Source: Acidobacteriaceae bacterium
Lineage (GTDB): Bacteria > Acidobacteriota > Terriglobia > Terriglobales > SbA1
Reading direction: 5' to 3'
Length of the DNA: 9,417 nucleotides
NCBI GenBank assembly: GCA_003136335.1
Contig: PLEA01000367.1
Location: 247 to 9,663 of the forward strand
Under the pieces are notes generated by a model. That model saw only the letters and a list, made by a program, of their open reading frames with translations, was not told the DNA's origin and made no database searches. Of this stretch, positions 1,354-9,417 are shown one piece after another. The number at the start of each line of letters is the position of its first letter. Position 1 is the first letter of the stretch. Position numbers and translations under genes: made by a program.

Positions 1354-1370
1354 TGCAATTTAGCAATTGG

Positions 1371-1474
1371 GGAATTGTGTAATTTGGTAATTTTGGACTT
1401 GGGTAATCTTTGATCGCCCCGTTAAGGCTGCGTTTCAGATTACCCAATTGCACAATTACAAAATTACTCAATCC
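1371..1474 (+). repeat. Long imperfect inverted repeat 1 (G/T-rich arm, loop, A/C-rich arm)
   Basis: The left arm is 1371-1408 and the right arm 1438-1474, with a 29-base loop. The reverse complement of the right arm aligns to the left arm with one single-base gap and a handful of mismatches. The left arm is an iteration of AT-rich words such as ggaattg, taatttgg and taattttgg. The inner closing stem is exact (gggtaatc with gattaccc). It is much more AT-rich than the flanking genes. It fills the gap between the helicase stop codon and the small basic ORF, ending 12 bases before that ATG. There is no U-tract, so a standard intrinsic terminator is not supported. Confidence 0.8.
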
Positions 1475-1486
1475 AAGAAAGCATTC

Positions 1487-1648
1487 ATGGCAAACACATC
1501 CAAGCTAACCAAAGAAGAACGCAAGAAATCTAAACGCACCGCCCGCAAGAAGCGCAAGGCGGAAAAGCCGCTCAAGCCCCGCGATTACGCCCGCGGATCC
1601 AAGAAGCCCAAGGTCAAGAAACTGGCTCGCGGCCAGGCGAAGCGGTAA
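1487..1648 (+). CDS. Small, highly basic protein of unknown function (53 aa)
   Basis: The ATG at 1487 opens a 53-codon frame ending in TAA at 1646-1648. The protein begins MANTSKLTKEERKKSKRTAR and contains 16 Lys and 8 Arg against 4 acidic residues, giving a net charge near +20. It has no hydrophobic stretch, no Cys and no recognisable domain. Such composition suits a nucleic-acid- or ribosome-associated peptide, but that is inference from charge only. No strong Shine-Dalgarno is seen; the purine run aagaaag lies about 7 bases upstream. An in-frame TTG at 1448 would extend it into the adjacent inverted repeat and is rejected. The gene sits alone between two long inverted repeats, which makes it a discrete unit. 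Codon use resembles its neighbours (GC-rich third positions such as cgc, aag, gcc), which supports a real gene. I do not recognise a named family. Confidence 0.6.
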   Translation: MANTSKLTKEERKKSKRTARKKRKAEKPLKPRDYARGSKKPKVKKLARGQAKR

Positions 1649-1651
1649 GGC

Positions 1652-1742
1652 AGCAATTGGCATAAGGCACTTGGCACTTGGCCGGTGTGGTTCCAGGAAT
1701 TGCCGGGAACCCAAACTGGCTAAATGCCAGGTGCCAATGGCT
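1652..1742 (+). repeat. Long imperfect inverted repeat 2 upstream of the permease
   Basis: The left arm (1652-1694) and right arm (1706-1742) face each other across an 11-base loop. The arms pair over about 36 positions, with a bulge of roughly 7 bases in the left arm where the word ggca/ggcac is repeated an extra time. The left arm is G/T-rich and iterates ttggcat, cttggcac and cttggcc; the right arm is A/C-rich. It occupies most of the gap between the small basic ORF and the permease Shine-Dalgarno. Sequence words differ from inverted repeat 1 although the architecture is the same. Confidence 0.75.
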
Positions 1743-1756
1743 AAAGGCTAGATTTC

Positions 1757-1762
1757 AGGAGA
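1757..1762 (+). promoter_or_regulatory. Ribosome binding site supporting the TTG start of the permease
   Basis: AGGAGA lies 10 bases before the TTG at 1773. No ATG or GTG follows before the conserved N-terminal region of the permease, so this site is what fixes the TTG start. Confidence 0.6.
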
Positions 1763-1772
1763 CCACAACCGC

Positions 1773-3338
1773 TTGTCACAACTCACGGAACCCGCTGCCG
1801 TCATCCGTACTTCCGACCGCCAGGTTTTCTGTTGCAAGTCCATCGACAAGCTGATCTCGGAATCCGAATCCCCGGGCCAGCGACTGCAAAAAACACTCGG
1901 CCCGTGGTCGCTGACGGCGCTGGGCATCGGCGCCATCATCGGCTCGGGCATCTTCGTGCTCACGGGCACCGCCGCTGCTGGAGAATATTTTCAGGCTCCG
2001 TCGATCCTGCACGCGCAGGTGCTCGACATCATCGTCAACTTTCTGCGCGGCGGCGGCACCAGCGCCGTGCTCATGCATGGGCGCCCGCCGGCGGGCCCGT
2101 CTATTGCGATTTCATTCCTTCTCGTCGCCATCGCCTGCAGTTTCGCTGGCCTCTGCTATGCCGAACTGGCATCGATGATCCCGATCGCCGGCAGCGCCTA
2201 CACTTATTCCTACGCGACGCTCGGCGAAATCTTTGCCTGGATCATCGGCTGGGACCTCATCCTCGAATACGTGGTCAGTAACGTGGTCGTGGCCATCGGT
2301 TTCAGCGCCTATACCAAAGCGCAACTCGCTTCGTTCGGCCTCAACCTGTCCGACCGATGGTCGACGCCCGTTTGGGAGTCCGGGCACTGGACGGGCGCTT
2401 ACTTCAACGTCCCAGCCTTCCTCATCATTTTCATTCTTACCGTGCTTCTGGTGCGCGGCATCCGCGAATCGGCCAAGGCGAACAACATTATGGTCGCCGT
2501 GAAGATTGGCGCGATCCTGATCTTCCTCGTGGTGGGCGGAGCGCTGGTGCACACCAATAACTGGAAGCCGTTCGCGCCCTCCGGATTCGGCGGCATCGTG
2601 ACCGGAGGCGCTATCGTCTTCTTTACCTACATCGGCTTCGATTCCGTCTCCACTGCGGCCGAGGAGGCGAAGAATCCCCAGCGTGACTTGCCCTTCGGCA
2701 TCATCGCTTCTCTGATTGTTTGTACGGTGCTCTACATCGGCGTCTCCATCGTGCTGCTGGGCATGATGAAGTACACGACCTTCGTCTCCGGCGAAGCCGC
2801 CCAGGCCCCTGTGGCCTACGCGCTGAAGGTGCTCGGCGCCAGCCGCTGGTCGCGATCCATCATCGTGATCGGCGCGCTGACTGGCATGATCTCGTCGTTG
2901 CTGGTCTTTCAATATGGCCAGGCCCGCATCTGGTACGCCATGTCGCGGGACCGTCTGTTCCCAAAGATGTTTTCCCTTGTTCATCCCAAGTTCAAGACGC
3001 CGCATGTGTCCACTTGGATTGCCGGATTCGTGGTCGGCATCCCCTCGGGAATTTTCGCCATCAGCGACGCCGCCGACCTGTCGAACATCGGCACGCTGTT
3101 CGCGTTCGTGCTGGTCTCGCTCGGAGTGATTATCCTGCGCCGCACGCAGCCCGACCGTCCGCGCGTCTTCAAAGTCCCGCTGGTTCCGTGGTTCCCGCTG
3201 ATCTCGATTATCCTGTGCGGCGGCCTGATGACCGGCCTTACGGTCATCACGTGGCTGCGCTTCGTGATTTGGCTTGGGCTCGGCCTGCTGATCTACATCT
3301 TCTATAGCCGCCATCGCAGCGAGTTCGCGCGGAAGTAG
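1773..3338 (+). CDS. APC-superfamily amino-acid permease (YfnA/cationic amino acid transporter type)
   Basis: This 521-residue integral membrane protein should carry amino acids across the inner membrane, probably by proton symport. TM1 holds the helix-breaking substrate motif GIGAIIGSGIFVLTG (residues 51-65). Further family marks are AELASMIPIAGSAYTYSYATLGE (130-152), GFDSVSTAAEEAKNPQRDLP (288-307) and the WYAMSRDRLFPKMF region (387-400). About 12 hydrophobic helices can be read, the last around residues 489-511. The pattern matches bacterial CAT-like transporters such as YfnA and GkApcT; the exact substrate cannot be read from sequence. A roughly 40-residue insert (71-109) lies between TM1 and TM2, including a 14-base palindrome at 2083-2096. 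The start is TTG, placed by AGGAGA and by the N-terminal amphipathic segment SIDKLISESESPGQRLQKTL that is usual before TM1. It ends in TAG, convergent with the esterase gene and separated by a repeat. It appears monocistronic. Confidence 0.9.
   Translation: MSQLTEPAAVIRTSDRQVFCCKSIDKLISESESPGQRLQKTLGPWSLTALGIGAIIGSGIFVLTGTAAAGEYFQAPSILHAQVLDIIVNFLRGGGTSAVLMHGRPPAGPSIAISFLLVAIACSFAGLCYAELASMIPIAGSAYTYSYATLGEIFAWIIGWDLILEYVVSNVVVAIGFSAYTKAQLASFGLNLSDRWSTPVWESGHWTGAYFNVPAFLIIFILTVLLVRGIRESAKANNIMVAVKIGAILIFLVVGGALVHTNNWKPFAPSGFGGIVTGGAIVFFTYIGFDSVSTAAEEAKNPQRDLPFGIIASLIVCTVLYIGVSIVLLGMMKYTTFVSGEAAQAPVAYALKVLGASRWSRSIIVIGALTGMISSLLVFQYGQARIWYAMSRDRLFPKMFSLVHPKFKTPHVSTWIAGFVVGIPSGIFAISDAADLSNIGTLFAFVLVSLGVIILRRTQPDRPRVFKVPLVPWFPLISIILCGGLMTGLTVITWLRFVIWLGLGLLIYIFYSRHRSEFARK
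2083..2096. repeat. 14-base perfect palindrome in the permease TM1-TM2 insert
   Basis: The sequence gcccgccggcgggc is its own reverse complement and encodes part of MHGRPPAGPS in the extra loop between the first two membrane helices. It lies in a tolerant loop, like the palindrome in the helicase linker. In GC-rich DNA such a palindrome could arise by chance. Confidence 0.45.
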
Positions 3339-3381
3339 CAAATCTAAGCTGTCAGCTTTCAGCCCTCAGTCAAACCACTCT

Positions 3382-3444
3382 GTCATCCTGAACGAGGCAG
3401 ACCGATTTCGCGCACGCGAATCGGTCTGCGTAGTGAAGGACCCC
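3382..3444. repeat. Dispersed intergenic repeat with strong hairpin between convergent genes
   Basis: The outer parts read gtcatcctgaacgag (3382-3396) and tagtgaaggacccc (3431-3444). They resemble a repeat I recall as common in Acidobacteria and other soil bacteria (gtcatcctgagcgaa...gaaggacct). Between them is a near-perfect hairpin: 3397-3412 pairs with 3415-3429 (gcagaccgatt with aatcggtctgc, then cgcg with cgcg), with one bulged T and a 2-base loop. It sits between the converging permease and esterase genes and could stop or buffer transcription from both sides, but no T-run follows. Just upstream (3348-3369) is a short iteration of tcagc-like words. The remaining bases up to 3506 show nothing recognisable. 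Confidence 0.7.
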
Positions 3445-3506
3445 TGTACTCCTTCGCCACCAATGTCCTCAAAGGGAGTTCTCAATCGAAATCTGGCATC
3501 CGCTTC

Positions 3507-5081
3507 CTACTTCGTCCACGCGCCCGCCAGAAATACATACCGCTCCCGCAGTTCATCCTTGTGCGCCGTGGATTTTATGTCCAGAAAAATCACTGGCCAT
3601 CCGTCAGCTGCTGAATACACGGGCCACTTCGGAAGACCCGGCCCATTGGGATCGCCGCTGCGGGCAAAGTTCGCCCAATATTTCTGCATCTCCGCGCTGA
3701 GCTGACGGTCTTCCGGTCTCCACGCAATCCCGGCTTTGGAATCGAGCTGGCCAAACACATACTCAATCTCCGACGAGTGGAACGCGCCCCGTGGCGGGCC
3801 CTTCGGATCCGACGGAGGACCCAGGTCGAAGCGGTAGCGATAGATCGGCTGCTTACCCGTCCTGGCCTGCGATTCCATCCATTCCCACGTGGAGAATGCA
3901 ATAAAGCGGTCGCCCGCGAAATCCTCCGCGGAACGCAGCGCATGTTCGTCGGTGTCAGCGGGATAAAGTCGAACAAAATCCGCGGCCTTCTCGCCGAACT
4001 CTTTTTGCGCCGTGGCCTTCAAGCTGTCCGCTGTCGACTTCTGCGGAGAGAACGCGATTTCGAAGCTGCCTTCGTCGTGGTTCCAGCCCGCAAGCAGCGG
4101 CACGTCGTTCTGTTTCCCTGCCGCAAATATAGCCGGCACCGATTCCGGCAGAAAATATCCGTCCACGTCCGGATCGAAATCAAAGCCCTGGGACTGGGGC
4201 GGCGCGAATGCATCCAGCAGTTTCTGCGCCGGGACGGCCCGCAACTCGGCCAGCGTGCTCACTCCTAATTTCGCGCTGACAACCTTTACATCCTTCTCTT
4301 CCCGGACCGACCGCGGCTCAAATGCGAGACCTCCACTGAAGAACGCGCCTCCGCTCTCTCCAATTGCCTTCCGAAAAAGGCCTTTGGCAAGGGGAGAGGC
4401 CATCTGCGCGCTGACCGAGAATGATCCCGCGCTTTCTCCGAAGATCGTCACATTTGCCGGATCGCCGCCGAAAGCCGCAATATTGTCATGCACCCACCGC
4501 AGTGCCGCCACTTGGTCGAGCAATCCGTAATTGCCGGCTGCATTTCGTCCCGACTCCTTCGCGAGTTCCGGATGCACAAAAAATCCGGAAATTCCCAGGC
4601 GGTAATTCATACTCACCACGATCACGCTCTGCTGCGCCAGAGTTGTGCCATCCTGCCGCGCCTCAGACGTCGAGCCCGCGACAAATCCTCCGCCATAAAT
4701 CCAAACCATTACGGGCAGCTTCGCCGCGGAGGGCTTCGCCGGGATCCAAACGTTCAGAAACAGGCAGTCTTCGCTGCCGCCGGCATCGCGAAAGCTCATG
4801 TCGCCAAATACTTTTCCTTGCATGCAATGCGTGCCGAACTCCGTGGCTTTCCGCACGCCGCTCCATTTCGCGGCGGCCGCGGGCGGCTTCCAGCGCAGAT
4901 CGCCCACGGGCGGCGCGGCATAGGGGATTCCGAGAAACGCGTGGACCGCGCCGTCTTCCTTGCCCTCGACCATGCCTGCATCGGTTTTCACCAGTGGCAC
5001 TGACGACGTCCCAAACAAGGCTAATGGCGCGGCCAGCATGGCCCACACAACCAGCGACCTGCGGACAATCTTCGCGTTCAT
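3507..5081 (-). CDS. Secreted type-B carboxylesterase
   Basis: This 524-residue alpha/beta-hydrolase of the carboxylesterase/cholinesterase family should hydrolyse carboxylic esters outside the cytoplasm. Residues 1-27 (MNAKIVRRS, then VVWAMLAAPLALFGTSS) look like a Sec signal peptide. The type-B signature SEDCLFLNVW spans 103-112; the oxyanion-hole glycines are in WIYGGGF (127-133); the nucleophile is Ser217 in GESAGS; the acid is probably Glu337 in NHDEGSF; the His is His435 in AFHSSEIEYVFG. Cys86 and Cys106 match the family's conserved N-terminal disulfide. Length fits the family. The frame is open back to 5216, but the ATG at 5079-5081 is preferred because AGGAGA precedes it by 4 bases and the signal peptide starts there. 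The native substrate is unknown; it could serve degradation of plant or xenobiotic esters. It is transcribed divergently from the deaminase and appears monocistronic. Confidence 0.92.
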   Translation of the reverse strand: MNAKIVRRSLVVWAMLAAPLALFGTSSVPLVKTDAGMVEGKEDGAVHAFLGIPYAAPPVGDLRWKPPAAAAKWSGVRKATEFGTHCMQGKVFGDMSFRDAGGSEDCLFLNVWIPAKPSAAKLPVMVWIYGGGFVAGSTSEARQDGTTLAQQSVIVVSMNYRLGISGFFVHPELAKESGRNAAGNYGLLDQVAALRWVHDNIAAFGGDPANVTIFGESAGSFSVSAQMASPLAKGLFRKAIGESGGAFFSGGLAFEPRSVREEKDVKVVSAKLGVSTLAELRAVPAQKLLDAFAPPQSQGFDFDPDVDGYFLPESVPAIFAAGKQNDVPLLAGWNHDEGSFEIAFSPQKSTADSLKATAQKEFGEKAADFVRLYPADTDEHALRSAEDFAGDRFIAFSTWEWMESQARTGKQPIYRYRFDLGPPSDPKGPPRGAFHSSEIEYVFGQLDSKAGIAWRPEDRQLSAEMQKYWANFARSGDPNGPGLPKWPVYSAADGWPVIFLDIKSTAHKDELRERYVFLAGAWTK

Positions 5082-5085
5082 ATGC

Positions 5086-5091
5086 TCTCCT
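5086..5091 (-). promoter_or_regulatory. Ribosome binding site of the carboxylesterase
   Basis: On the minus strand AGGAGA is followed by GCAT and then ATG, a near-ideal Shine-Dalgarno. It decides the start at 5081 over the longer frame beginning at 5216, whose extra residues carry no family similarity and would bury the signal peptide. Confidence 0.75.
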
Positions 5092-5113
5092 GGTTGAGAT
5101 TCAAGGACACCGG

Positions 5114-5119
5114 ATTGTA
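5114..5119 (-). promoter_or_regulatory. Candidate -10 box (TACAAT) for the carboxylesterase
   Basis: Minus-strand TACAAT lies 32 bases before the esterase ATG. This leaves room for a transcription start followed by a leader of about 25 bases containing the AGGAGA site. The -35 is weak (TTTCGT at 16-base spacing), so this is a candidate only. Confidence 0.45.
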
Positions 5120-5174
5120 ACGGAAAATCGTTAGCACGAAAGATCGCTCCCTCGCAAATCCTTCGGCGAGAATC

Positions 5175-5180
5175 TACAAT
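5175..5180 (+). promoter_or_regulatory. Candidate -10 box (TACAAT) giving a leaderless deaminase mRNA
   Basis: TACAAT ends 7 bases before the ATG at 5188. With usual -10 to start-site spacing, transcription would begin at or within a base or so of the start codon, giving a leaderless or nearly leaderless mRNA. The -35 (TCGCAA at 17-base spacing) is poor. It is arranged back to back with the esterase TACAAT about 55 bases away. Confidence 0.4.
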
Positions 5181-5187
5181 CAGAGGG

Positions 5188-6204
5188 ATGACTTCCGTGT
5201 CCCTGCGTCCACCCAATGCTTTTATCCGTCAACTCCCCAAGGCGGAGCTGCACTTGCACCTCGAGGGTACGGTTGAGCCCGCAACGTTGCTCGAACTCCG
5301 CAAGCTCCACGGTGAACATGCCACCCTCGCCGAGGTCGAAGCTCTTTACGGCTACAGCGATTTCCAAAGTTTCCTGATGGCCTTCAAGGCAGTCAGCGCG
5401 CACCTGCGTGGGCCAGACGACTACGAACTTATTACCTACCGCCTGATGCAACGGCTGAAGGAAGAGACCGTGTTGCACGCGGAGGTCTATGTTGCGGTCG
5501 GGGTCTGCCTCTTTCGCAAACAGGATTTCGCCGCCATCTTCGAGGGTCTGGAACGTGGACGCGCACGCGGCACGCGGGACTTCGGCATTTCGTTGCTGTG
5601 GATCTTTGATGCCACCCGCCACTTCGGAGTCGAGGAAGCACAAAAAGTTTTCGAACTCGCGGCGCGCTACCGGGACCGCCACGTCGTCGGCATTGGCATT
5701 GGGGGCGACGAGCTCAAGGCGCCGCCTGAACTTTTCCGCAGCGTCTACGCGTACGCCGCCGATCATGGCATGCGCCTGACGGCGCATGCGGGCGAGACCG
5801 GCCCTCCTGAGTCCATCTGGGGAGCGCTCAACCTGCCCGCCGAGCGAATTGGCCACGGCCTTAGTGCCGCGCAGGACGCCGACCTGATCGAAGAACTCGC
5901 CCAGCGCCAGATTCCAGTAGAGCTCTGCATCACCAGTAATCTCCGCACCGGAGTGTGCAAGGCGGTGGCCGAGCATCCCACGAAGAATTATTTCGACCAG
6001 GGACTTATGATCACGCTCAACACCGACGACCCGGCGCTGTTTGGCACCACACTGTCACGCGAATACCAACTTGCCCAGGAAACTTTCGAATTCAGCGATG
6101 AGCACCTCCGCGAATTAGCCCGCAATTCATTCGAAGCTTCTTTTCTGCCCGCAGAAAAAAAGCTCGAACTCCTGAGCCTGTTCGATGCGGCCGCCGCGAG
6201 GTGA
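5188..6204 (+). CDS. Adenosine deaminase family protein (adenosine, adenine or aminodeoxyfutalosine deaminase)
   Basis: This 338-residue cytoplasmic zinc amidohydrolase should deaminate an adenine-containing compound, releasing ammonia. All metal and catalytic motifs are present: HxH in AELHLHLEG (His22, His24), TAHAGE (His200, Glu203), IGHG (His223), CITSN (248-252) and LNTDDP (Asp280, Asp281). The length suits the family. In classical adenosine deaminases the HxHxD motif supplies an Asp that contacts the ribose; here the equivalent residue is Glu26 (HLEG), a change also seen in adenine-deaminase-like members, so the substrate is left open. The start follows a purine-rich agaggg directly abutting the ATG, and a TACAAT box close by. 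The 71-base gap to the deformylase shows no terminator, so the two may be co-transcribed. Role: purine salvage or, less likely, the futalosine route to menaquinone; no other gene of that route is present. Confidence 0.9.
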   Translation: MTSVSLRPPNAFIRQLPKAELHLHLEGTVEPATLLELRKLHGEHATLAEVEALYGYSDFQSFLMAFKAVSAHLRGPDDYELITYRLMQRLKEETVLHAEVYVAVGVCLFRKQDFAAIFEGLERGRARGTRDFGISLLWIFDATRHFGVEEAQKVFELAARYRDRHVVGIGIGGDELKAPPELFRSVYAYAADHGMRLTAHAGETGPPESIWGALNLPAERIGHGLSAAQDADLIEELAQRQIPVELCITSNLRTGVCKAVAEHPTKNYFDQGLMITLNTDDPALFGTTLSREYQLAQETFEFSDEHLRELARNSFEASFLPAEKKLELLSLFDAAAAR

Positions 6205-6275
6205 CAGGCTGGATATGAATTTAGAATCCAAAATCAACCTACGAATTCCGCTTTAATTGAGAACTGAGAACGGAA

Positions 6276-6833
6276 ATGCCAATCCGCCCGATCCTCCAAC
6301 TCGGCGACCCACTCCTGCGGCAAAAGGCCATCATGGTCGATGACCCGACGGTGCGCGAGATTCACGATCTGGTCCGCGATCTCGCGGACACGCTCGCTCA
6401 CTGGCGCTCCGCAACTGGCTACGGACGCGGCATTGCCGCTCCCCAACTTGGCGAGTTGCAGCGCGTCATTTTTCTCAAACTCCCGGAAGCCGAGCCGTGG
6501 CCGCTCATTAACCCGGAGATCATCGAAGCGAGCGAAGAAAAAAGTATTGTCTGGGACGCCTGCCTGAGTTTCCTTTCGATCTTCATGCAGGTCGAACGCC
6601 ACCGCCGCGTGACAGTGTGCTACCAGAATCTGAATGGTGAAAGGCTCGAATTAAAAGCAGACGACAACCGCAATCTTTCCGAACTCCTGCAGCACGAAAT
6701 CGATCACCTCGATGGCATCCTGGCGATCGATCGCGTCGTCAATCTCAACACCATCTGCACCCGCGAAGAATTCGAAAAGCGTTACCGCGACGCGAGTCCC
6801 TACGCGGTCGCTCCAGTTACAATCAAGAGCTGA
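6276..6833 (+). CDS. Variant peptide deformylase
   Basis: This 185-residue protein belongs to the peptide deformylase family, metalloenzymes that remove N-formyl groups from new proteins. It has motif 1 as YGRGIAAPQLG (49-59; usual GxGxAAPQ), motif 2 as DACLSF (94-99; usual EGCLS) and motif 3 as QHEIDHLDG (139-147). Metal ligands Cys96, His140, His144 and the catalytic Glu141 are kept. The Glu-Gly before the Cys has become Asp-Ala, and motif 1 is preceded by an unusual AHWRSATG segment. The C-terminal tail from about residue 154 (VVNLNTICTREEFEKRY) also differs from the ordinary enzyme. It may be a secondary deformylase or act on another substrate; the metal site argues for activity. The usual partner gene fmt is not adjacent. 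The start ATG has only a weak upstream ggaa. It follows the deaminase in the same direction. I withhold the symbol def because of the motif changes. Confidence 0.85.
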   Translation: MPIRPILQLGDPLLRQKAIMVDDPTVREIHDLVRDLADTLAHWRSATGYGRGIAAPQLGELQRVIFLKLPEAEPWPLINPEIIEASEEKSIVWDACLSFLSIFMQVERHRRVTVCYQNLNGERLELKADDNRNLSELLQHEIDHLDGILAIDRVVNLNTICTREEFEKRYRDASPYAVAPVTIKS

Positions 6834-6834
6834 A

Positions 6835-6946
6835 TAGGTCTTAGGTCTTGGGTTTTAGGTGTTAAGTCTTAGGCAAAGTTTGAAGTTGCGCAGAGACTGA
6901 GAGACGACATCGCCAAAGACCCAATACCTTTAAGACCGAAGACCAA
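6835..6946 (+). repeat. Long imperfect inverted repeat 3 abutting the racemase start codon
   Basis: The left arm (6835-6870) is G/T-rich and iterates ggtctta, ggtcttgggt and taggtgttaagtctt. The right arm (6916-6946) is A/C-rich and reads aagaccc, aatacct, aagacc and gaagacc. They pair as ggtctt-N-ggtctt and ggt-N-tt-NN-gtctt, with a bulge of about 4 bases and a 45-base loop. The right arm ends 5 bases before the racemase ATG, so a folded transcript would cover the usual ribosome-binding position. No Shine-Dalgarno is evident there. A TACAAT sits at 6818-6823 inside the end of the deformylase gene; if used, the leader would be essentially this hairpin. Confidence 0.75.
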
Positions 6947-6951
6947 AACTG

Positions 6952-7641
6952 ATGTTACACATCGGCATTGTCGCATCCAGCGCGGAAGGCGCCGCGCTCT
7001 GCTATCGCACCATCTGCGTTGAGGGCGCGGAGTTGCTCGGTCCCTACAATCATCCCGAAGTGTCGATGCACGGGCATCCTTTCGTCCAATATAAGAAATG
7101 CATTGATGCAACTGATTGGGTCGGAGTCGCAGAACTCATGCTCTCCTCCGCGGAGAAGTTGGCCAAGGCCGGCGCCGACTTTCTTATCGCTCCCGTCAAC
7201 ACCGTGCACCAGGCTTTCGATCTGGTTGAGCACCGCTCCCCGCGCCCCTGGCTGCACATCGCGATTGAAGTCGCCAATGAAGCCAGGCGCCACGGTTACA
7301 AACGCCTCGGAGTACTCGGCACGCGTTCCTTGATGGACGGTCCGGTTTACCGCGACACGTTGAAGGACGCTGGTATCGAGCAGCGCGTTCCGGGCGTGGA
7401 ACAGCGGGAGCGCATTCATCGCATCATCTTCGATGAACTGGTCCAGGGAAATTTCCTGTCTCGCACGCAGGCGTATTTCACAGAGGTGATTCGCACGCTC
7501 AAAGATGAGGGCTGCGACGCGGTGGCACTCGCCTGTACTGAAATCCCGTTACTGATGACGCCGGAGTCTTCCCCGCTTCCCATGCTCGACTCTACGCGCA
7601 TACTGGCCAGAGCCGCCCTGCGCAAGGCAGTGGAAGGCTAG
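6952..7641 (+). CDS. Asp/Glu/hydantoin racemase family protein with altered active site
   Basis: This 229-residue cytoplasmic protein has the two-domain aspartate/glutamate racemase fold, which inverts amino acids with two cysteines and no cofactor. Family marks: an N-terminal strand IGIVASSAEGAALCYR (4-19), ADFLIAPVNTVHQAFD (75-90), PWLHIA (99-104), RLGVLGTRSLMDGPVYRD (118-135), ERIHRIIFDEL (153-163) and ALACTEIPLL (192-201). Cys195 in ACTEI is the C-terminal catalytic cysteine. The first cysteine, expected just before the NT pair, is replaced by Ala80 (IAPVNTVH). With one of the two acid/base cysteines missing, it may be one-sided, use another residue, or have another reaction. The usual N-terminal GGMSWEST-like loop is also changed (ASSAEGA). 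The start is the ATG at 6952, just after inverted repeat 3, with no visible Shine-Dalgarno. It ends in TAG and is followed by a PIN-domain remnant. Confidence 0.85.
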   Translation: MLHIGIVASSAEGAALCYRTICVEGAELLGPYNHPEVSMHGHPFVQYKKCIDATDWVGVAELMLSSAEKLAKAGADFLIAPVNTVHQAFDLVEHRSPRPWLHIAIEVANEARRHGYKRLGVLGTRSLMDGPVYRDTLKDAGIEQRVPGVEQRERIHRIIFDELVQGNFLSRTQAYFTEVIRTLKDEGCDAVALACTEIPLLMTPESSPLPMLDSTRILARAALRKAVEG

Positions 7642-7658
7642 CGAAGGGAGGGCAACTT

Positions 7659-7811
7659 CCTATCGCGGTCATCCCCGCTGACCTGGACCGCGCCACTCGC
7701 GTCGCTGCCCTTAAACAAAAGCATAACCTGGGCCACGCCGATGCCTTCGCCGCCGAACTGGCCATGGAACGCGGGATGACACTCGTAAAGGCAAGGCCGC
7801 ATGTTTCGAGG
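7659..7811 (+). pseudogene. C-terminal remnant of a PIN-domain (VapC-like) protein
   Basis: A frame without its own start reads PIAVIPADLDRATRVAAL then KQKHNLGHADAFAAELAMER and GMTLVKARPHVSR. This matches the second half of PIN-domain ribonucleases: a helix with LK-K, the (Y/H)ADAFAAALA helix carrying an acidic residue, and the final TLVT-DPEF strand. The last acidic residue is lost (ARPHV in place of ADPEF), and the N-terminal half with the first catalytic Asp is absent, since the racemase stop codon lies only 17 bases upstream. The frame runs on past 7811 into the opposite-strand kinase gene without further similarity. I read it as a decayed toxin fragment; no VapB-like antitoxin gene is nearby. 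An internal ATG at 7764 would give only a meaningless tail. Confidence 0.6.
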
Positions 7812-7843
7812 GGGGAGCAGCCGCTATCTGCCAGTGACGACTC

Positions 7844-8509
7844 TCAGGCCCCCGCTGCGTCCTGCCCGCCCAGTGGCAGGAAATACTGCGTACCCTTGAT
7901 GGGCTCGGTAACTTTGCGCAGCAGTTCCTGCAAGTCTTCGTTGCGATCGACGAAATCAATCTCTGACGTATTGACGATCAGCAAGTCCGAAGATGTGTAG
8001 TGAAAAAAGAAGTGCTCGTAGGCCTTGACCACTTCTGCCAGATAATCGTCGCTCACCGCCCGCTCGCCCGGTGCATTCTTCTTCTTGAGCCGCTTCTTCA
8101 GCACCTCGGGCGTAGCCTGCAAATAAATTACGAGATCCGGCGTGGGCAGTTGGTCGCGAAAATGGTTGTAGTAGCGGTTATACGTGTCCAGTTCCTGGTC
8201 GGTCAGATTGAGGCAGGCAAACAGCTTGTCTTTTTCGAAGATAAAGTCGGAGACCACGATTTTCTGCGACCGCGGTCCCAAGTCGAGCGCCTGCAACTGC
8301 TCGAAACGTCGCACTAGAAATGTAAACTGCGCCTGAAACGCCGCCCCGCGTTCGCCTTCATAAAAAGAGTATAGAAACGGATTGCTATCGGGCTCCATCA
8401 CCCGTTGCGCGTTCAACCGCTCGGCTAGAATGCGCGCCAGCGTGCTCTTACCCACTCGAATGGGCCCTTCCACAGCAATGTACCGGGGCAGTTCAAAAAG
8501 ATTGGCCAT
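7844..8509 (-). CDS. Deoxynucleoside kinase
   Basis: This 221-residue cytoplasmic enzyme of the deoxynucleoside kinase family should phosphorylate deoxynucleosides (salvage) with ATP. The P-loop is VEGPIRVGKST (13-23). A substrate-side Glu-Pro follows at 39-40 (VMEPDSNPFL), then the QAQFTFLVRRFEQ helix (59-71) and VVSDFIFEKDKLFA (85-98), in which Asp88 takes the place of the acidic catalytic base of the classical (E/D)RS motif. The lid RLKKKNAPGER (140-150) carries the basic residues. The replacement of the DRS arginine and serine by Phe-Ile is, as I recall, shared by a bacterial subfamily often found near folate or pantothenate genes, which are not present here. The start is the ATG at 8507-8509, with no clear Shine-Dalgarno; a promoter candidate lies 28-56 bases upstream. 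The gene is alone on the minus strand, divergent from the deacetylase and convergent with the PIN remnant. Confidence 0.88.
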   Translation of the reverse strand: MANLFELPRYIAVEGPIRVGKSTLARILAERLNAQRVMEPDSNPFLYSFYEGERGAAFQAQFTFLVRRFEQLQALDLGPRSQKIVVSDFIFEKDKLFACLNLTDQELDTYNRYYNHFRDQLPTPDLVIYLQATPEVLKKRLKKKNAPGERAVSDDYLAEVVKAYEHFFFHYTSSDLLIVNTSEIDFVDRNEDLQELLRKVTEPIKGTQYFLPLGGQDAAGA

Positions 8510-8536
8510 GAGTTCGTGCGATGTCTCGGAATTGGA

Positions 8537-8565
8537 AGGATATCTTGGTTGCGCCTCACTGGCAA
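8537..8565 (-). promoter_or_regulatory. Candidate sigma-70 promoter of the deoxynucleoside kinase
   Basis: On the minus strand TTGCCA (8565-8560) and TATCCT (8542-8537) are separated by exactly 17 bases. They match the consensus at five and four of six positions. Transcription would start near 8530, giving a leader of about 20 bases before the ATG at 8509. Confidence 0.45.
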
Positions 8566-8590
8566 TTGCGGGAAGAGTTAACAGCCCCCT

Positions 8591-8668
8591 ATTGCTGATT
8601 TCTTGATTGTTGATTGCTGAATGAAAGCTCCGAAGGGAATCCGCAATCAGAAATCATCCATTAACAAT
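8591..8668 (+). repeat. Long imperfect inverted repeat 4 upstream of the deacetylase
   Basis: The left arm (8591-8622) is G/T-rich and iterates attgctgatt, cttgattg and ttgattgctga. The right arm (8639-8668) is A/C-rich and reads gcaatcag, aaatcatcc and ttaacaat. About three quarters of positions pair, around a 16-base loop. It lies in the divergent spacer between kinase and deacetylase and ends 12 bases before the ATG at 8681. An alternative ATG at 8621 falls inside the repeat, and translation from it would simply read through the right arm. Confidence 0.7.
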
Positions 8669-8674
8669 TACAAT
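8669..8674 (+). promoter_or_regulatory. Candidate -10 box (TACAAT) directly before the deacetylase start
   Basis: TACAAT follows inverted repeat 4 immediately and ends 6 bases before the ATG at 8681, mirroring the deaminase arrangement at 5175-5188. If used, the mRNA would be leaderless, and the inverted repeat would lie upstream of the transcript in the promoter DNA. No convincing -35 is visible. Confidence 0.35.
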
Positions 8675-8680
8675 TCTTCC

Positions 8681-9394
8681 ATGCTCGGAGCCGTGCTAGC
8701 CGGAACAGGCGCCGCAATTGCCGTCGCCGCTGGATATCAATCGATGGCGCCGACCGGGCAGTGGTACGGCAGCACCTTTACCGGCCTCGCCCGCGGGACA
8801 AGACAAATCGCGCTTACCTATGACGATGGCCCCAATGACGCGCACACCATGCGTTTGCTGGAGGTGCTCGCCAGGCACGAAGTACACGCGACTTTTTTTC
8901 TGATCGGACGCTACGTTCAACAGCTACCCGAAATCGCCCGCCAGATCGTCAAGGCCGGCCACATTGTCGGCAACCACACGTTCACCCATCCGCTGCTGAT
9001 CTTCAAAAGCGCGGCTGAAATTCGCCGGGAAGTCTCCGGCTGTCGCTCCGCCCTGCAGGACGCCGTCGGCGGAAATTTCAATCTAATCTCCAATCTCTTT
9101 CGGCCTCCATTCGGCGGCCGTCGCCCCGGCGTGGTGCGCATCGCGCGTGAATTAGGCCTTGAGCCAGTGATGTGGAATGTGACAGGCTACGACTGGAGCA
9201 CGCCTCCATCGGGGGTGATCGAAGAGAAGGTGGCAAAGCAGATTCGCGGCGGCGACGTAATCCTCTTGCACGACGGCGGTCACAAACACATGGGCGCCGA
9301 CCGGTCCCAAACAGTTCTGGCGACGGATCGGCTGATCAAGCGCTACAAGTCGGAAGGCTACGAGTTCGTGACGATCCCGGAAATGATGAAATGA
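8681..9394 (+). CDS. Polysaccharide deacetylase (NodB domain, membrane-anchored)
   Basis: This 237-residue carbohydrate esterase family 4 (CE4) protein should remove N- or O-acetyl groups from a cell-wall or extracellular polysaccharide using a divalent metal. All five NodB motifs can be read: TYDDGPN (46-52, catalytic base Asp48, metal Asp49), NHTFTHP (98-104, metal His99 and His103), RPPFG (141-145), the WNVTGYDWS region (165-173) and LLHDGG (195-200, His197). Residues 2-18 (LGAVLAGTGAAIAVAAG) form a short hydrophobic segment with no basic N-region or clear cleavage site, suggesting an uncleaved anchor or weak signal. I chose the ATG at 8681 because the 20 codons from the ATG at 8621 translate an inverted-repeat arm and resemble no protein. 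It ends in TGA; the last 23 bases of the window hold nothing recognisable. Substrate (peptidoglycan, chitin-like or exopolysaccharide) cannot be decided. Confidence 0.92.
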   Translation: MLGAVLAGTGAAIAVAAGYQSMAPTGQWYGSTFTGLARGTRQIALTYDDGPNDAHTMRLLEVLARHEVHATFFLIGRYVQQLPEIARQIVKAGHIVGNHTFTHPLLIFKSAAEIRREVSGCRSALQDAVGGNFNLISNLFRPPFGGRRPGVVRIARELGLEPVMWNVTGYDWSTPPSGVIEEKVAKQIRGGDVILLHDGGHKHMGADRSQTVLATDRLIKRYKSEGYEFVTIPEMMK

Positions 9395-9417
9395 TGACCC
9401 GGCCGCGGGCCCAAGCG

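Follow-up and report, generated by a model that had tools for sequence, protein, structure and literature searches.

The stretch of DNA considered here, which we call the window, comprises 9,417 nucleotides (nt) of NCBI GenBank assembly GCA_003136335.1 (contig PLEA01000367.1, positions 247 to 9,663 of the forward strand), and it carries four intergenic inverted repeats, in spacers A to D, whose arms are built from iterated words of seven or eight nucleotides. The window is a contig piece from an uncultured member of the Acidobacteriota; the dNK protein that it encodes is up to 95% identical to proteins from metagenome-assembled genomes named Acidobacteria, Acidobacteriaceae or Candidatus (Ca.) Sulfotelmatobacter. 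Its genes comprise, in order, a transposase fragment fused to the C-terminus of UvrD, a small open reading frame (ORF), and genes for an amino-acid permease, a carboxylesterase, an adenosine deaminase, a deformylase, an Asp/Glu racemase, dNK and a polysaccharide deacetylase. The spacers contain the four palindromes and two further arrays:

1354..1486, plus strand: spacer A, words of period 8; 5' arm 1374-1409, 3' arm 1437-1472, loop of 27 nt
1649..1772, plus strand: spacer B, period-7 word GGCACTT; 5' arm 1652-1697, 3' arm 1703-1749
3343..3369, plus strand: lone period-7 array, AGCTGTC/AGCTTTC/AGCCCTC, without inverted partner, starting 4 nt past the permease gene's TAG stop
6254..6276, plus strand: lone period-7 array, GAGAACT, without partner, extending to the ATG of the deformylase gene
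6834..6951, plus strand: spacer C, period-7 word TAGGTCT/GGTCTTA, 5.6 copies; 5' arm 6841-6879, 3' arm 6907-6947
8510..8680, no strand assigned: spacer D, period-7 word TTGATTG/ATTGCTG; arms 8591-8615 and 8638-8661

A preliminary description of the window had reported imperfect inverted repeats of iterated words in these four spacers, with G/T-rich 5' arms and with ends shortly before start codons, and all of these observations hold. Stems A (score 26, 31 pairs), B (score 19, 35 pairs) and C (score 17, 30 pairs) were matched by none of 1000 dinucleotide shuffles, and stem D (score 14, 20 pairs) gave p 0.019 in 1000 such shuffles; D alone is weak and is supported by its orthologs. RNA folding of the entire spacers yielded z scores of -4.4 (A), -5.3 (B), -4.3 (C) and 0.0 (D). 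Tandem Repeats Finder reported period 8 in A (also 16 and 24) and period 7 in B, C and D, and the share of G and T in the 5' arms is 0.72, 0.59, 0.72 and 0.76 in A to D. In A, 14 nt separate the end of the palindrome from the ATG at 1487; the palindrome of B ends 23 nt before a start codon, its arms being followed by AGGAG and then by the TTG start of the amino-acid permease gene at 1773; that of C, with the deformylase gene on one side and the Asp/Glu racemase gene on the other, ends 4 nt before a start codon; and that of D, in the gap between the divergent dNK and polysaccharide deacetylase genes, ends 19 nt before one. All six period-7 runs of the window (11 of 14 positions matching) are borne by spacers, namely B, C, the two arms of D and the two lone arrays, and period-8 runs occur in the two arms of A and where the last gene ends (9380-9401). 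At score 30, Tandem Repeats Finder listed further runs within genes, one of period 12 at 1915-1952 and a short one of period 7 at 5559-5577. The two lone arrays are too short for that program at score 30 and were missing from the preliminary list. A comparison of the window with Rfam 15 produced three matches, every one far below the curated cut-offs.

Wider counts were made on relatives (Ca. Sulfotelmatobacter and kin) in place of the window's own genome. The samples were G001 and G008 together (1.6 Mb, 1265 spacers), 80 relative loci chosen around the divergent site D (L001-L080), G003 (173 kb), 20 class genomes, and a phylum sample of 20 stretches that is partly biased, four of them (L180, L183, L192 and L196) having been picked at word matches; gene starts and stops were taken from a simple ORF caller, not from annotation. 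Hairpins scoring at least 18 were found in 68 of the 1057 spacers of the 80 loci and the window, compared with 0.4 expected from shuffling, and 400 kb of G001 contained hairpins in 20 of 298 spacers, compared with 0.4 in shuffled sequence and 3 in coding pieces. In G001 and G008, 162 hairpins scored at least 15, and 81 of these have iterated arms, 61 with period 7 and 14 with period 8. The same 1.6 Mb hold 189 intergenic period-7 arrays versus 12 after shuffling, at a density of 61.6 per 100 kb of intergenic DNA versus 3.0 in coding DNA. Of the 189, 112 are accompanied by an inverted partner within their spacer (3 in a control that shuffled the remainder of the spacer), and just 12 have a further copy running in the same direction. 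Iterated palindromes number 32 per Mb in G001, 48 in G008, 23 in G003, 5 in the class genomes and 27 in the phylum sample, with its partly word-match-based choice. The class is abundant in some Ca. Sulfotelmatobacter-like Acidobacteriota, and it displays the marks of heptanucleotide repeats of the short tandemly repeated repetitive (STRR) kind, that is, a 7-nt tandem unit, multiple intergenic copies and the ability to form hairpins.

These elements occupy the gap from just past the stop codon of one gene to just before the next gene. In G001 and G008 the median distance from stop codon to palindrome is 4 nt (n=83) and that from palindrome to start codon is 14 nt (n=78, one further palindrome having no start within 150 nt). 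Iterated palindromes were present in 63 of 826 codirectional, 10 of 176 convergent and 8 of 263 divergent gaps, divergent gaps being poorer than codirectional ones (Fisher p 0.009) and convergent and divergent gaps differing at p 0.22. Proximity to start codons, which the preliminary description had treated as a conserved feature, is a by-product, because the elements span gaps from just past stop codons. An element belonging to start codons was considered and rejected, since the palindromes lie closer to stops and are also found in convergent gaps.

The four words had been taken to be unrelated, with architecture conserved in place of sequence. This view can no longer be held, because all four word classes recur in relatives or orthologs and a common core is present in three of them. 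The words of A are found again in G008 and in orthologs, that of C in G008, that of B in orthologs, and the word class of D in G001, L003 and L004. Altogether, 288 arrays (from G001, G008 and other loci) use 130 distinct words, and 205 of the 288 have a word in common with another array, compared with 80 expected from letter-shuffled words. The word CTGAGAA (three units, at most two mismatches) is present in 16 of 119 phylum genomes, with 127 matches in G120, 112 in G008, 21 in G001 and no more than 6 in any other, overlapping matches within one array being tallied separately; the reversed pattern gave 0-3 per genome. The 127 matches in G120, a phylum-level relative, represent another amplification.

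Most 7-nt arrays at gene borders have a common degenerate core: 5' arms carry YYRGNNN (Y, pyrimidine; R, purine; N, any base), and 3' arms carry the complementary sequence. After stop codons, the ratio of arrays with only YYRG to those with only CYRR on the sense strand was 12:2 in G001, 39:4 in G008, 24:3 in L001-L080 and 2:0 in G003; before start codons, where the search extended 60 nt beyond the called start, it was 1:15, 2:17, 11:20 and 0:3, respectively. The rule was first noticed on visual inspection of the arrays of G001 and G008; the G003 arrays (three on each side) were not used to find it, and those of L001-L080 lie outside the list that revealed it, though their hairpins had already been viewed. 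Partnerless arrays after stops follow the rule (34:7), and the two lone arrays of the window agree with it, with TCAG (3343-3369) and CTGA (6254-6276) on the sense strand. The words of B (TTGG), C (TTAG) and A (TTGG, in the direct reading) contain YYRG. Purine/pyrimidine word classes are enriched (66 of 130 versus about 28), words one change apart not being independent, and TAG stops are overrepresented at genes with arrays (59/114 versus 943/2563, p 0.001). Among the arrays after stops, the antisense strand has stop codons in at least two frames in 72 of 134, compared with 36 in unit-permuted arrays, and the sense strand shows no rise (37 versus 45). When seeding of arrays by the same stop codon was considered, a weak periodic excess appeared at offsets 7, 14, 20-21 and 27, and a conserved inner AAA suspected by eye was present in 18 of 132.

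Within a word family the polarity is fixed: the 21 period-7 families that recur have 57 members, and within each family all agree (57 of 57; random mean 41, maximum 49 in 2000 draws). The keto (G/T) bias of the 5' arm is real yet partial, and it is not general: keto-rich 5' arms prevailed by 56 to 25 (of 81) and 37 to 14 (of 51) in two sets of iterated palindromes, and among distinct period-7 families by 37 of 49 (p 0.0005), neighbouring words not being independent. L001 lies within G001, and one palindrome is consequently doubled in the pooled sets used for polarity families and for the wobble and loop comparisons below. Because the reverse complement of an inverted repeat is the repeat itself, the plus-strand orientation that the preliminary description called conserved reflects symmetry and amounts to polarity, not to direction toward the gene. 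Among the palindromes of L030, L035, L052, L070 and G008 there are families with words like CACAGAGA and ACACGAAGG, whose best lags are 8 to 10 and whose 5' arms are A/C-rich, the opposite of the usual polarity.

A site can swap one word class for another with its flanks staying alike. At site D, a significant hairpin was found in 37 of 64 orthologs without N (window included), the remaining 27 being scored as having none, a category that includes long loops and scores slightly under the cut and is thus not proven absence. Arms paired with a mean score of 20.3 within species versus 7.3 across species, and for 24 of the 37 no foreign species' arm paired equally well. A tree quickly built from the flanking genes, with word-class labels set by hand from arm clusters (L018 and L043 added by eye), requires a minimum of 12 word-class changes among 31 classified rows, or of 29 over all 64 rows when "none" and "other" are counted, and a supported seven-row set that includes the window contains three word classes. 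In L056 and L062 a second word class is, by eye, nested in the loop of the first. At site C, orthologs L082, L083, L084, L086 and L095 show words of the ACTGAGA or ACTGGCA type ahead of the start, and the GGTCTTA palindrome of the window was in no site C ortholog displayed. For sites A and B, 26 loci were located in 25 of 28 genomes, many with related hairpins and the rest with different words or none; in spacer A, words related by eye occur in 14 of the 26 orthologous loci, of which 12 were aligned (L250 and L256 omitted), orthologs with related words having been chosen by eye for the alignments of both A and B.

With moderate confidence, we interpret the four repeats as dispersed heptanucleotide (less often octanucleotide) palindromes of the STRR kind that arise by array arrival, slippage and fold-back copying. 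A word array would reach a gene border, expand and contract through unit slippage and, through fold-back (template-switch) synthesis, which is our best guess at the birth step, give rise to a copy at the other border of its gap. The arms would match by virtue of a common origin, and whatever sequence stood between them would form the loop; we infer this matching by birth from the pairing of arms with their own partners, the fixed polarity, the decay, the unmatched loops and the excess of inverted partners. Most copies would afterwards decay through point mutation, the elements being tolerated where harm is small, and a few, perhaps B, might join an mRNA leader. The preliminary description, which knew of no named element like this, had offered either a generating mechanism or selection on structure alone. 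Named elements of the same design do exist, in STRR hairpins (PMC2670836) and the P6b stem of Nostoc trnL (PMC4476775), and of the two proposals the generating mechanism fits better.

Several points weigh against this account and the regularities on which it draws. Fold-back copying and slippage are reconstructed, no intermediate having been dated, and the partnerless arrays may be remnants, not precursors; moreover, the same words at many loci require a dispersal route, and none was found. The four iterated palindromes of G003 (173 kb) have periods 6, 9, 9 and 11, none of them 7. In L001-L080, divergent gaps are the richest (24/320, versus 23/695 codirectional and 4/173 convergent), every locus there having been chosen around a divergent site. 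The YYRG/CYRR rule is weak before starts in these 80 loci (11:20), and too few arrays bear on it in the class sample (1:1 of 3 after stops, 0:0 of 4 before starts) and in the phylum sample (4:1 of 7 and 1:1 of 6). When the 134 after-stop arrays of G001, G008, L001-L080 and G003 are pooled, 77 contain YYRG alone, 9 contain CYRR alone, 24 contain both motifs and 24 contain neither; the 17 period-8 arrays after stops have only YYRG in 5, only CYRR in 2 and neither in 10; and the D family (GATTGCT) has its core on the opposite strand, so that D misfits the rule. Finally, the persistence of the A words (14/26 by eye), together with the G.U-biased pairing of B, suggests some selection.

Selection is the essence of the best-surviving alternative, in which the hairpins are intergenic RNA structures (terminators, 3'-end protectors or devices of translational coupling) whose pairing matters and whose words drift freely; we consider this possible but doubtful. 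The richness of codirectional relative to divergent gaps in G001 and G008 (63/826 versus 8/263) agrees with it, as does the wobble pairing of the codirectional iterated palindromes there: G.T exceeded A.C on the sense strand by 97 to 66 (p 0.018), and the hairpins folded more stably in the sense direction (n=63, p 0.004). A second set did not replicate either result (21:22, pooled p 0.043; fold stability n=23, p 0.42). Wobble-based RNA selection, which the preliminary description had raised for G/U-rich arms, was thus present in one set and absent in the other, and we rejected it as a general rule. At individual sites, the sense strand of B has G.T 34 versus A.C 11 and is the more stable one in each of the 11 sequences (the window and 10 orthologs), while that of A has G.T 10 and A.C 10 and is the more stable in 10 of 13; the A and B sequence sets share ancestry. 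A consensus fold of B has 29 pairs in 10 sequences and that of A only 6, in our opinion because the words of A slip out of alignment register, and A was therefore judged sequence by sequence.

Compensatory change, which the preliminary description had proposed as a check, is slight. In 23 close ortholog pairs, which share species and are not independent, 562 of 667 paired positions were unchanged, 88 had one side changed and 17 had both, where 5.45 doubles were expected. Ten of the 17 doubles are Watson-Crick pairs, 1 is a wobble pair and 6 are broken, and the new single mismatches comprise A.C 29, G.T 27 and other 32. The doubles lie above expectation, but uncompensated single changes dominate; the structure accordingly looks inborn, not selected, B possibly excepted, and selection on structure alone fares poorly. 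D, moreover, sits in a divergent gap, and a simple consensus scan for intrinsic terminators (loops 3-8) gave no match on the sense strand of A-C and none on either strand of D, its sole match being a weak antisense one within B.

It is rather unlikely that the elements are a conventional mobile family, such as a miniature inverted-repeat transposable element (MITE) or a repetitive extragenic palindrome (REP) mobilised in trans, transferred as entire palindromes. The fixed polarity inside families would suit such a family, as would the nearly empty gap of about 15 nt in the site C ortholog L081, in which no target-site duplication was recognised by eye. So would the matches of a covariance model of B, which number 54 in G008, 54 in G012, 51 in G178 and 45 in G019, and 1 or 2 each in G175, G176, G179 and G180, both strands of a place being tallied apart, best candidates only being scored and E-values being rough. 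Y1_Tnp (IS200-type) transposase matches in 34 of 41 class genomes are weak evidence in the same direction. Against this, the loops of same-word palindromes within one genome gave no match at E 0.01 (with little power for short loops), the only loop matches being those of same-site loops and of one octamer family in three species; the shared interior of a MITE is thus missing, and no shared ends were seen. The unmatched loops are better explained by fold-back copying across the gap than by transfer of whole units. In REPs each family has its conserved sequence, and the arms are not known to carry iterated heptamers. Here there are many word families, not one, and 130 words in 288 arrays are at odds with the near-identical palindromes expected of REPs and their associated transposases (REP/RAYT); the REP-like TGTCATCCTGAGCGAAG... 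repeats form a distinct, non-iterated set in the same genomes. That AT-rich, low-complexity spacers fold by accident is scarcely credible, for D by itself is weak (p 0.019) but the shuffled and coding controls, together with the D orthologs, refute chance, as the comparison with shuffled intergenic sequence invited by the preliminary description bears out.

The STRR sequences of cyanobacteria provide the nearest precedent. According to PMC2670836, these sequences (for example between hupS and hupL and before hoxW) usually have 7-bp tandem units, can form a hairpin and are intergenic; the hoxW STRR lies close to the upstream gene's 3' end, and a role in stability, coupling or termination was suggested, its function being unknown. 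The likeness, one of word pattern and design, appears to extend to 7-bp tandem hairpins between genes, whereas many word families per genome, a common core, fixed polarity and an acidobacterial host set the present elements apart. The group I intron in trnL(UAA) of Nostoc and Calothrix has a P6b stem made of 7-nt repeats (PMC4476775). These belong to two classes, TDNGATT and NNTGAGT, that differ greatly in sequence and resemble each other in structure, and the region has been replaced repeatedly, at one intron site as against the many intergenic sites here. The TAACTGA direct repeats of Beggiatoaceae, described in PMC4679880, lie mostly just before starts in one orientation and carry CTGA, matching the rule found here, but they have one dominant word, rarely repeated single-base variants and one inverted case. 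Xanthomonas GGGAATC and Nostoc GGGGA(C/T)T, both of which contain YYRG like the words here, form mostly intergenic heptamer arrays, with 70 and 75 inverted pairs in two Xanthomonas genomes; PMC4692102 tracks one word per genome, with quadruplex formation as its theme, unlike the multi-word set here, and names REP elements as a class, which the present repeats resemble as multicopy intergenic palindromes. Many short repeats, the majority below 50-100 nt, are reported for the Solibacter genome in PMC3174227, whose excerpts contain no description of words of this kind; an excess of palindromes across phyla is surveyed in PMC4060949. We found no description of heptamer tandem intergenic repeats in Acidobacteria, and no relevant record of comparable repeat words, in the open literature, which misses most subscription papers, and the word repertoire, its core and the rule of polarity seem to be new.

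In the excerpted sources, published heptamer repeats were treated as one or two words each, without explanation. Here one lineage has dozens of words, a common core, fixed polarity and fast in-place turnover, and the origin and spread of such repeats thereby become testable by comparing close relatives. A warning also follows, namely that a hairpin at the same place in many species need not reflect selection on structure. The published words TAACTGA, GGGAATC, GGGGAYT and GTGATTA (the last from Helicobacter) each contain YYRG on one or both strands, compared with 33% of random heptamers, although four words are a small sample. One may speculate, as a long shot, that bacterial intergenic heptamers, these included, constitute one class with YYRGNNN after stops and CYRRNNN before starts, made by one shared telomerase-like writer with a fixed core, three free positions and mirroring across the gap. 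If this were true, a template would supply the core, let three positions vary and work at gene borders.

Other features of the window lie apart from the iterated palindromes. The first ORF (1-1353) joins a fragment of a Mutator-type transposase (residues 43-161) in frame with the C-terminus of UvrD/PcrA (residue 149 on), which is either an insertion in a helicase gene or an assembly chimera, and the small ORF had no Pfam match. The palindrome at 3386-3440 is REP-like and similar to TGTCATCCTGAGCGAAG..., which is a distinct repeat without iterated words, frequent in relatives. In the gap of site D, 8537-8565 and its orthologs contain a dNK promoter-like pair, TTGCCA-17-TATCCT, adjoined by a conserved GTTAAC block, and on the deacetylase side TACAAT stands about 6-10 nt before the ATG in many orthologs, as if the mRNA were leaderless.

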